This document shows positions 4,967 to 59,274 of a DNA stretch of 64,000 nt, in pieces. Made by a program: the position numbers and the translations under genes. The notes below the pieces were generated by a model. The model was not told where the DNA came from and did not search any database. It saw nothing but the letters and a program-made list of their open reading frames with translations. The stretch comes from Clostridia bacterium (GTDB lineage: Bacteria > Bacillota > Clostridia > UMGS1883): positions 1 through 64,000 of the forward strand of contig JAFVPB010000021.1 of NCBI GenBank assembly GCA_017505525.1. The letters are read 5' to 3'. Within the stretch, counting starts at the first letter, position 1. Each line of letters opens with the position of its first letter.

Positions 4967-5400
4967 GGAAAGATTCCTGTGTTTCTAAGCTCGTCGCGTA
5001 CGTCAGCCATAATGTTTACATTGTACGGAGCGATAAGGAAAATACCGTTTGCAACTTTCTGAATTGATGCGCCAAGTGCATAAACACCGCCGCTTATAAA
5101 ATCAACAACTCTGCGTGCAGTTTCCTTTTCAAGCTTTTCAAGATTGATAACAATAGCTTTCTTTGAACGGAGATGATCGGCAACGTCGCGCACCTCTTCA
5201 AAGCTTTCAATCTGAACAACAACAACCTTCATCTGTGTTGTTGCGGCAATGTTTACAACCTTTGATTTTTTTGGAGAGAACTTAGGTATAGCCTCTTCAA
5301 AATCCTCATTCTGGTCGTTTGCCGAGTTTAAGACCATTTCATCATCATCGTCTTCCTCAGGACCGAATACCAATTCTGTAAATTTGTTTAAAAATGACAT
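4957..5400 (-). CDS. sepF: SepF cell-division protein
   Basis: This 147-residue cytosolic protein of the SepF family tethers FtsZ filaments to the membrane and helps shape the division septum. The N terminus (MSFLNKFTELVFG) is a short amphipathic membrane-targeting helix, followed by an acidic linker (about residues 15-40). The C-terminal SepF core starts near residue 57 with VVVVQIESFEEVRDVADHLR and includes VDFISGGVYALGASIQKVANGIFLIAP. The AAGGAGGG ribosome site is strong. The ylmE-sepF-ylmH order is the usual Firmicute division cluster; ylmG and divIVA are absent here. Confidence 0.96.
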   Translation of the reverse strand: MSFLNKFTELVFGPEEDDDDEMVLNSANDQNEDFEEAIPKFSPKKSKVVNIAATTQMKVVVVQIESFEEVRDVADHLRSKKAIVINLEKLEKETARRVVDFISGGVYALGASIQKVANGIFLIAPYNVNIMADVRDELRNTGIFPWE

Positions 5401-20729: not shown

Positions 20730-21006
20730 TAAGCATACGGGAGTCGAACTCAATATGGTTTAAAAATGGAAATTTCGCATAATATTGCAGAAAATTCTGC
20801 GAATATACGTCAGTATTATTCTTGAATTTTCTTTATCTTATATCAAAATTTTCTATTTTTAAACTCTTCGACCTTAAACGCAGAGAAATTTAGCGGAATT
20901 TCAATGCGGAGAACGAAGATAGGCTGACGCCTTTCGAGGACGACAAATTGAAAGTATGCAAATTTAATGAGTTTAAGGCATATCGGGTTCAATTCCCGTA
21001 TGCTTA
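20730..21006. repeat. Fold-back structured element, copy 1
   Basis: This 277-bp element is closed by a 20-bp inverted repeat: TAAGCATACGGGAGTCGAAC at 20730-20749 against 20987-21006 (18 Watson-Crick pairs, one G-T). Inside is hairpin 1, GTTTAAAAAT (20758-20767) with ATTTTTAAAC (20855-20864). It is followed by a conserved core at 20905-20946, with GATAGGCTGACGCC and GAGGACGACAA. The internal sequence is largely shared with copy 2, but the closing stem is unrelated. It sits between divergent genes and makes up most of the 400-base gap; its left edge touches the ribosome site of the GH13 gene. Confidence 0.8.
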
Positions 21007-21054
21007 TATTATAATCTAAAATTATGAAAAAACAATAAATTTTTTCCTTATTGC

Positions 21055-21083
21055 TTGTAAAAAAATAAATATCAGTGTATAAT
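21055..21083 (+). promoter_or_regulatory. Promoter of the RlmL-like methyltransferase gene
   Basis: TTGTAA (21055-21060) and TATAAT (21078-21083) with a 17-base spacer lie about 40 bases before the start codon, just downstream of repeat copy 1. Confidence 0.6.
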
Positions 21084-21122
21084 CGATTTAATAGTGCGTT
21101 GTAAAAAAGAAAGGATATGCCT

Positions 21123-22241
21123 ATGACAAGACTTTTACTCACGGTCCCCACGTTTTTCGGTACTGAAGCAACCCTTGCGCATGAAATCAGAAGCCTTGGC
21201 TATGAAACGAGCGAGGTAACCGACGGAAGAGTAACTTTTGAGGGCGATATGGAAGCAATAGCCCTTGCAAATGTGAATCTTCGATGCGGTGAACGCGTGC
21301 TTATAAAAATGGCAGAGTTCAAAGCAAAAACCTTTGAAGAATTGTTTGAGGGAGTAAGAAAAGCTCCGTGGGAAAATTTTATAGGAAAAAACTGCGCTTT
21401 CCCCGTTAAAGGAAGCAGTGTTTCAAGCACCCTTTCAAGTGTGCCTGCGTGCCAGAGCATTGTGAAAAAAGCAGTTGTTAAGCGCCTTGGCGAAAAATAC
21501 GGCATAGAGTTTTTTGAAGAAACGGGCCCTATGATGCGCGTACAGTTTTCGCTTTTTAAGGATAATGCCGTAATTTATATCGACACAACGGGCGAGCCTC
21601 TTTATAAGCGCGGCTATAGGGCAAAGGGCGTTGCAGCACCGCTGAGGGAAACACTTGCCTATTCAATGATAGATATAACAAGGTGGCGAGGCGACCGTCC
21701 GTTTGCCGATGTTTTTTGCGGAAGCGGAACAATACCGATTGAGGCGGCGCTTTATGCAAAGAATATTGCACCTGGCAAAAAACGCACATTTGTAAGCGAA
21801 AAATGGACCGAAGAGCTTAAGGGTTTATACAAGGATGCGCGTGAAGAAGCGCTTGAAAATGAAACGCCCGATGCTCCCGTAAGAATATACGCTTCCGATA
21901 TCGACCCTGCGGCAGTTAAGCTTGCGATAGAAAATGCAAAAAGGGCCGGAGTGGAAAAGTTTATCAATTTTAAAGTGTGCGATATGAAAGATGCTCCGCT
22001 CTTTACCGATAAAGGCGTGATATGTTCTAATCCACCGTATGGCGAAAGATTGATGGATAAAAAATCCTCTGCAATTCTCTACCGCAAAATGGGTGAAAAG
22101 TTCCAAAAATTTGAGAATATTGGAAAATATATTCTTACAAGCCACGAGGAATTTGAAAAATTTTACGGAAAAAATGCTGATAAGAAAAGAAAACTTTACA
22201 ATGGAATGCTGAAATGCTATTTATATCAGTATTTTAAATAA
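21123..22241 (+). CDS. RlmL/RlmK-like THUMP-domain RNA methyltransferase
   Basis: This 372-residue SAM-dependent N2-guanine RNA methyltransferase of the RlmL/TrmG10 class has an N-terminal ferredoxin-like/THUMP region (about residues 1-150). The Rossmann fold follows: FADVFCGSGTIPIEAALYAKN (SAM motif I) and ICSNPPYGERL, where NPPY is the catalytic motif of amino-methyltransferases. I place the start at ATG 21123 because AAGGA ends seven bases before it, whereas the upstream ATG at 21117 is only one base away. It probably modifies 23S rRNA. Element copies 1 and 2 bracket the gene in the same orientation. Confidence 0.92.
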   Translation: MTRLLLTVPTFFGTEATLAHEIRSLGYETSEVTDGRVTFEGDMEAIALANVNLRCGERVLIKMAEFKAKTFEELFEGVRKAPWENFIGKNCAFPVKGSSVSSTLSSVPACQSIVKKAVVKRLGEKYGIEFFEETGPMMRVQFSLFKDNAVIYIDTTGEPLYKRGYRAKGVAAPLRETLAYSMIDITRWRGDRPFADVFCGSGTIPIEAALYAKNIAPGKKRTFVSEKWTEELKGLYKDAREEALENETPDAPVRIYASDIDPAAVKLAIENAKRAGVEKFINFKVCDMKDAPLFTDKGVICSNPPYGERLMDKKSSAILYRKMGEKFQKFENIGKYILTSHEEFEKFYGKNADKKRKLYNGMLKCYLYQYFK

Positions 22242-22248
22242 AATGCGC

Positions 22249-22529
22249 GCTAGTCATCGGATAGTCGAGCTACATATGGTTTAAAAAGGGAAATTTCGTA
22301 TAATACTGCAGAAAATTCTGCAAATATACGCTAGTATTATTCTTGAATTTTCTTTGTCTTATATCAAAATTTTCTCTTTTTAAACTCTCCGACATTATGT
22401 TTATAAAAATTTCATATAATTTTAATGCGGAGGACGAAGATAGGCTGACGCCTTTCGAGGACGACAAGTTGAAAGAATAGAAATTTTTCAAGCATAATGC
22501 ATATGCAGTTAGTCTCTCCGATGACTAGC
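22249..22529. repeat. Fold-back structured element, copy 2
   Basis: This 281-bp element starts eight bases after the methyltransferase stop codon. The closing inverted repeat is GCTAGTCATCGGA (22249-22261) with its exact complement at 22517-22529. Imperfect pairing continues inwards through CATATG. Hairpin 1 is GTTTAAAAAG (22279-22288) with CTTTTTAAAC (22376-22385). The terminal G-C pair replaces the T-A pair of copy 1. The core at 22426-22467 is nearly identical to copy 1. The last three bases are shared with copy 3. Confidence 0.8.
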
Positions 22530-22800
22530 CGAAAGAGAGTAATCCGAACCCGCCTGAAGCGGCGAAGTTTCGGCATTTTTCGGCTTGTCGTCTTTGCAAG
22601 GCACAAAGCCTTGCTGCATCCTTCGCACCAAAACCTGCTCAAAATTTCATCCGTTTCAGGTCATTGAATTTTTAGAGAGCAGATTTTTGGTTGTGCAAGG
22701 CAAAAACGCAGGAAATACTTTGTGTATTTCCGAGTATTTTAACATAGCAAAAGCGAAAATCCGCCTCTAAAAATCGAGTTCGGATTATTCTCTTTCGGCT
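22527..22800. repeat. Fold-back structured element, copy 3 (diverged, opposite orientation)
   Basis: This 274-bp element is closed by a 23-bp inverted repeat (22527-22549 and 22778-22800, beginning AGCCGAAAGAGA) with one mismatch that would be a G-U pair in RNA. Read on the minus strand it has the same architecture as copies 1 and 2. Hairpin 1 is closed by TTTTTAGAG (22669-22677) and CTCTAAAAA (22765-22773). The core at 22584-22627 has matching TGCG, AGGA, GGCT/GCCT and GACGACAAG blocks. Most of the primary sequence otherwise differs. It ends eight bases before the ribosome site of the next gene. Confidence 0.75.
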
Positions 22801-22820
22801 AAATAAAGAGGTGAGCGCAG

Positions 22821-43269: not shown

Positions 43270-43273
43270 TGAA

Positions 43274-43319
43274 TAAAAATACAGAAAAGGCGTTTTAATA
43301 CGTCTTTTCTGTATTTTTA
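43274..43319 (+). terminator. Terminator of the his operon
   Basis: A long hairpin formed by AAAAATACAGAAAAGGCG and CGTCTTTTCTGTATTTTT starts a few bases after the last stop codon and ends in a T run. Confidence 0.85.
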
Positions 43320-43398
43320 TGCAAAAATGTATAAAGGGAAAAACGTGTCAAAATCAATAAAAAAGGTGCTTATATATAATGTAAAACTATACGATTTG

Positions 43399-58212: not shown

Positions 58213-58228
58213 CATAAAAAATTGATTG

Positions 58229-58255
58229 CAGGGGAGGGTTTCTGTGCCCTCCCGT
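58229..58255. repeat. REP-like palindrome
   Basis: GCAGGGGAGGGTTTCTGTGC then CCTCCCG, an inverted GGGAGGG/CCCTCCC pair between pyrI and mrp. It is nearly the same as the copy at 59224-59250. Confidence 0.65.
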
Positions 58256-59175: not shown

Positions 59176-59250
59176 GGCGTACCGACTCGGCACGCCCTAC
59201 GATAAATTGTAAATTACCATACTGTAGGGGAGGGTCTCCGTGCCCTCCCG
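59176..59250. repeat. Two tandem REP-like palindromes
   Basis: The first, GGCGTACCGACTCGGCACGC plus CCTAC (59176-59201), and the second, GTAGGGGAGGGTCTCCGTGC plus CCTCCCG (59224-59250), are arranged so that their GTAGGG ends face each other, as in a BIME. They lie between the converging mrp and cation-efflux genes. Confidence 0.65.
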
Positions 59251-59274
59251 TTTTAATTTAAAAACACTGTAAAT

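Follow-up and report, generated by a model that had tools for sequence, protein, structure and literature searches.

Inverted hairpin dimers with matched terminal repeats in gut Clostridia, probable MITE-like elements

MITEs that insert at TA include RUP, the Correia/NEMIS elements of Neisseria and the Stowaway elements of eukaryotes, and the enzymes that usually duplicate TA in bacteria are those of the DDE_3 group (IS630/Tc1-mariner). A plain MITE has no need of a fixed length or of inner hairpins that covary. RUP, a MITE of Streptococcus pneumoniae, is 107 bp long and carries terminal inverted repeats (TIRs) like those of IS630-Spn1, while the BOX elements of the same species are modular and range in length from 67 to 637 bp (PMC3049150). 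REPINs are inverted doublets of REP units that are moved by RAYT, and their length and compensatory changes have been reported (PMC3116915); the REP units themselves measure 21–65 nt (PMC6006769). We found no earlier description of the repeat family reported here.

By the window we mean the whole stretch of DNA that was analyzed (64,000 nt). The original prediction had placed three elements of ~275 bp in it, and all of the sequence features it described are present, with the boundaries now corrected and the flanking TA included. The features are listed below together with matches to R1, a covariance model that we built from the aligned right-hand hairpins of 53 copies:

20730–21006, + strand: copy 1, family A, full element including both TAs, 277 nt; arms TAAGCATACGGGAGTCGAACTC / ...GTTCAATTCCCGTATGCTTA; empty sites in relatives L169, L171, L172 and L174
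20753–20871, − strand: left-hand unit (H1) of copy 1, inverted; R1 match on the opposite strand, E = 1.5e-4; outside the model
20865–20983, + strand: right-hand unit (H2) of copy 1; R1 match, 124.4 bits, E = 1.8e-30; sequence part of the model
22251–22527, + strand: copy 2, family A, full element including both TAs, 277 nt; 84% identity to copy 1 over 242 nt; same-arm relatives; empty sites
22274–22392, − strand: left-hand unit (H1) of copy 2, inverted; R1 match on the opposite strand, E = 1.8e-5; outside the model
22386–22504, + strand: right-hand unit (H2) of copy 2; R1 match, E = 9e-30; part of the model
22526–22527, no strand: TA common to copies 2 and 3, GATGAC-TA-GCCGAAAG ... CTTTCGGC-TA-AATAAAG; nested insertion, evidence for TA duplication
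22526–22801, − strand: copy 3, family B, full element including both TAs, 276 nt; nested in copy 2 at its right-hand TA; same-arm full-length copies elsewhere
22548–22667, − strand: H2 unit of copy 3; R1 match, E = 2.8e-27; part of the model
22661–22779, + strand: H1 unit of copy 3, inverted; R1 match on the opposite strand, E = 8.1e-7; outside the model

Copies 1 and 2, which make up family A, are alike inside, as had been proposed, and their 242-nt alignment (84% identity) is free of gaps. Copy 3, described from the outset as reversed and diverged with its core kept, belongs to a diverged sister family, B, that has the layout and core blocks of family A, and it is aligned over its full length by the right-hand unit model (E = 2.8e-27). 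The pairing of inner hairpin 1 is preserved by compensation (AAAAAT/ATTTTT in copy 1, AAAAAG/CTTTTT in copy 2 and TTTTTAGAG/CTCTAAAAA in copy 3), and the closing arms of 13–23 bp are as claimed, with imperfect pairing that extends further, to 27–35 bp or more.

Copy 1 is flanked by genes for an alpha-amylase-like protein and an rlmL-like methyltransferase, and copies 2 and 3 lie between the methyltransferase gene and the next small gene. The original prediction had proposed a search for empty sites in relatives, and these were found both for copy 1 and for copies 2/3. The gap that holds copy 1 is 401 nt here versus 117–125 nt in four of the six relatives with the same gene order, ~129 nt in a fifth, and 766 nt in the sixth, where other DNA is present; the gap that holds copies 2 and 3 is 583 nt here versus 36–53 nt in the four relatives in which the small gene could be aligned. 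The flanking bases align between the window and the relatives. Because these relatives are too diverged for the TA itself to be counted, and none offers a strain-level empty site, it is the nested copy 3 that shows the TA instead: copy 3 sits exactly inside the right-hand TA of copy 2, giving the order copy 2, TA, copy 3, TA, so that the TA is duplicated in this pair. Nesting with a shared TA also occurs in another genus (G025). Among 60 copies, whose boundaries were chosen with a preference for TA, a TA flanks both sides in 40 and one side in 18, and beyond the TA no flanking base is strongly conserved. The window repeats are insertions of a mobile element, as seen from their TA flanks, their empty sites and the nesting of copy 3 in the TA of copy 2. 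In one of the relatives, L173, the rlmL-side gap that corresponds to copies 2/3 holds a short derivative of family B (positions 5110–5200) that is independent of them.

The closing stems had been taken to be specific to each locus, which does not hold, as the same arms recur at many unrelated sites. The arms of copy 3 close full-length copies at several sites in the genus (G000:C55, G001, G002 and others), those of copy 2 close full-length relatives in two sister species (G003:C77 and G001:C119), nine copies in G309 that are 90–99% identical and lie at unrelated sites have identical arms, and six copies in G025 share theirs. Fixed differences between the two arms of an element also repeat copy after copy (ATTAACAATG versus ATTGACAATG in G309, and ACTTGAAC versus ACTCGAAC in G025), and since such differences are inherited between copies, the stem is not made anew with every insertion. 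Across the 60 copies, the two arms of the same element agree over their outer 13 nt at 11.7/13 positions (minimum 9), compared with 5.5/13 between different elements; the tips form ~19 clusters, and the arms change together between subfamilies. The closing stems are TIRs that are common to subfamilies and inherited with the element, and a subfamily, once it has arisen, spreads with fixed arms. The family-A TIR (window 20984–20998) resembles a tRNA T-arm (GGGTTCRANTCCC) and gives a weak tmRNA match (E = 0.011). We rejected a tRNA origin of the arms, as ARAGORN finds no tRNA in family-A loci and family B is without the GGGTTCRANTCCC motif.

Between its TAs, the element measures 272–274 nt in 50 of the 60 copies. 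R1, although trained on right-hand hairpins only, also picks up the left-hand hairpin of each window copy (E = 8.1e-7, 1.8e-5 and 1.5e-4), in every case on the opposite strand, and such matches are also present in a number of other genomes. It follows that two inverted copies of a single ~138-nt unit make up the element, which is laid out as TIR, unit, inverted unit, TIR. In the right-hand hairpin, 96.6% of cells are paired and 26 of the 32 pairs have changed on both sides, with 283 double-changed cells compared with 81 ± 10 in shuffled alignments (0/500 shuffles as high). Covariation is lost when partners are slid, a control that is partly favored because the structure was derived from the same alignment. 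The arms covary along with the inner helices. Conserved pairing with changed stem sequence, the central claim of the original prediction, is therefore borne out by covariation beyond 500 shuffles as well as by the matching of each element's own arms (11.7/13 versus 5.5/13). The covariation shows each unit as a hairpin of ~119 nt plus a TIR, and the TIR stem closes the three-way clover into which a single strand folds. The blocks TGCGGAG and GACGACAAG are conserved and unpaired.

Internal-deletion derivatives that keep both TIR tips were seen at L217, L201, L144, L207, L220 and L230 (about 160 and 73–87 nt). The deletions at L217 and L201 join hairpin tip to hairpin tip, and that at L144 nearly does so, which suggests that the hairpins form in DNA. 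A lone 36-nt piece of the right end of copy 1 (86% identity; L006 1501–1536, G000:C13:112909–112944), probably a remnant, has SRP-RNA-like sequence on one side and a dnaX-like gene on the other and is followed by a terminator-like stretch.

A covariance-model search of clostridial genomes, suggested with the original prediction, found the R1 unit in 55 of the 391 Clostridia genomes sampled, spread over many families, with 14–29 matches per genome in the four genomes searched closely. Copy 2 had no match in phage and plasmid collections, and three element patterns had no exact match in viral contigs. The copies are mostly intergenic, with 17 of 58 junctions inside an open frame of at least 120 aa versus 92% of random points. 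A ribosome-binding site and start codon lie 13–67 nt beyond an end in 32 copies, and either half can face the gene (17 versus 15). The spacing on the other side is short as well (median 68 nt, n = 23), so part of the closeness to ribosome-binding sites follows from the compactness of the genomes. As many copies stand just before ribosome-binding sites, they are probably transcribed; lying mostly between genes and often in such positions, the element probably shapes transcripts, and it also breaks assemblies.

No gene lies inside the elements. DDE_3 (IS630-type) was detected in 26/391 genomes overall but in 1 of the 55 unit-positive genomes, where ~3.7 would be expected by chance, and DDE_Tnp_1 is absent from the genus; both were rejected as the mobilizer. 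TIR patterns revealed no autonomous copy in G025, G027, G002, G309 or G055, and neither did the spacing of inverted units. The TIR searches returned pairs of ~275 nt, shorter derivatives with deletions, and lone ends, and in no case did two TIRs enclose a gene. One autonomous candidate, with 1.2 kb between units (G055:C1), proved to consist of an ordinary copy and an unrelated match next to it, and solo TIR ends were set aside as remnants or internal deletions. Among shared neighbor genes, none was transposase-like. Contigs in these draft assemblies often end within the element, and an autonomous copy that is itself repeated could therefore be missing from them. Many accepted MITEs are likewise without a known partner.

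Compared with described systems, the repeats have the features of MITEs in their size (~277 nt, under ~600 bp), their lack of coding capacity, their copy number (up to 29 matches per genome), their TIRs (11.7/13 versus 5.5/13) and their target-site duplication (TA on both sides in 40/60, and nested copies); a related autonomous element with the same TIRs is the one MITE feature that was not found. Like RUP and the Correia/NEMIS and Stowaway elements, they are short, intergenic, multi-copy and gene-free, with long self-pairing TIRs and a TA target. Of the marks of an IS630/Tc1-mariner MITE of the RUP type, they show TA duplication but no IS630-type partner in the same genomes, such a gene being missing from 54 of the 55 positive genomes. 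RUP is 107 bp long, has a single type of TIR and is accompanied by a resident IS630, whereas the repeats here are inverted hairpin dimers of ~277 nt with many TIR types. With REPINs they share the inverted doublet of a hairpin unit, the near-constant length, compensatory changes, a predicted hairpin/clover fold and a mobilizer outside the element; they differ in their units, ~138 nt rather than the 21–65 nt of REP units with a GT[AG]G foot, in their TA flanks and duplication, and in their long matched TIRs, and the copies listed do not end in a conserved GT[AG]G. BOX elements are similarly structured intergenic repeats with TIRs that are likely co-transcribed and moved in trans, but they are modular and variable (67–637 bp) where the present element is a fixed-length inverted dimer. 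Since the MITE features are present apart from a proven partner, and the comparisons with IS630 partners and REP size failed, we have filed the family with the MITE-like elements, as a new variant, rather than with the REPINs or the IS630 MITEs.

We consider it likely that the repeats represent a non-autonomous, TA-inserting, MITE-like DNA transposon, built as an inverted hairpin dimer and moved in trans. The element would insert into TA and duplicate it, as it has done in the nested pair. The moving enzyme may recognize the TIRs, together with the length and folding of the dimer, and would act in trans, a TA-specific cut-and-paste transposase being the most likely kind. Subfamilies with different TIRs could arise as both arms drift together with recognition. 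Several points count against this reading: neither a mobilizer nor an autonomous copy was found, the fixed length and covarying inner hairpins go beyond what a plain MITE needs, the boundaries behind the TA count were chosen with a preference for TA, and at the empty sites the divergence of the relatives keeps the TA from being counted. It is possible, though doubtful, that the family represents a Clostridia-wide two-hairpin class of mobile DNA that combines TA duplication like that of Tc1/mariner with shape recognition like that of REPINs, uses enzymes of a family that has yet to be described as transposases, and may change its arms freely as long as they stay paired. The mover of this element of fixed length, with mirror-image hairpins, matched but changing TIRs and no visible transposase, may be an unrecognized transposase.

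Three other readings were weighed. A REPIN-like element that travels as folded single-stranded DNA, with an HUH (Y1/RAYT-type) enzyme from elsewhere in the genome as its mover and the inverted hairpins as recognition sites, would account for the inverted doublet, constant length and compensatory changes, as reported for REPINs (PMC3116915), and also for the lack of a gene within the elements and the tip-to-tip deletions. We nevertheless regard it as unlikely, as IS200/IS605 and REP elements show neither the TA duplication of the nested pairs nor long TIRs, and the ~138-nt unit is far from the 21–65 nt of REPs (PMC6006769). We give hardly any credence to the notion that existing hairpins, such as terminators, are what the element inserts into or copies, so that each locus supplies the closing stem. 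The three window stems do differ among themselves, and copying or targeting of hairpins had been put forward on first reading; yet the same stems occur at many unrelated sites, arm-to-arm differences are inherited and recur, orthologous empty sites are without half-stems, and the target is TA only. None of the terminator-like sites found falls on a closing stem.

Quite improbable, too, is a structured non-coding RNA (or an RNA-guided or self-processing element) whose fold is selected in RNA and which spreads as a transposon passenger, even though the strong covariation, the conserved unpaired blocks (TGCGGAG and GACGACAAG) and the probable transcription of many copies just ahead of ribosome-binding sites speak for it. 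Decay of a DNA palindrome leaves G-U pairs at close to the frequency of A-C, while a maintained RNA should favor G-U. In helices picked neutrally, from Watson-Crick pairs only and with similar sequences down-weighted, broken pairs amounted to 18.5 G-U and 12.4 A-C in the right hairpin and to 30.6 G-U and 27.9 A-C in the left; tRNA acceptor stems at the same loci, which were chosen by ARAGORN and hence by a program that itself selects paired stems, gave 14 G-U and 0 A-C. This strand-neutral decay of pairs tends to argue against a conserved RNA gene, as does the fact that either half can face the gene. Early counts had favored folding of each half on its own strand, an idea we dropped when the strand-neutral weighted recount gave near equality. 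Rfam gave no match at the gathering score for any window copy, and at 20 other loci it matched only neighboring glmS, 5S rRNA and TPP sequences, in keeping with the original view that this is no known family. Of the initial alternatives, a structured RNA or a fold-back DNA element, the second stands as mobile fold-back DNA and the RNA gene is disfavored.

Two further repeats were noted in the window: a 29-nt GC-rich direct repeat at 58227–58255 and 59223–59251 (90% identical, 996 nt apart), and a spacer-free 27-bp inverted repeat at 43270–43323 (89% complementary).
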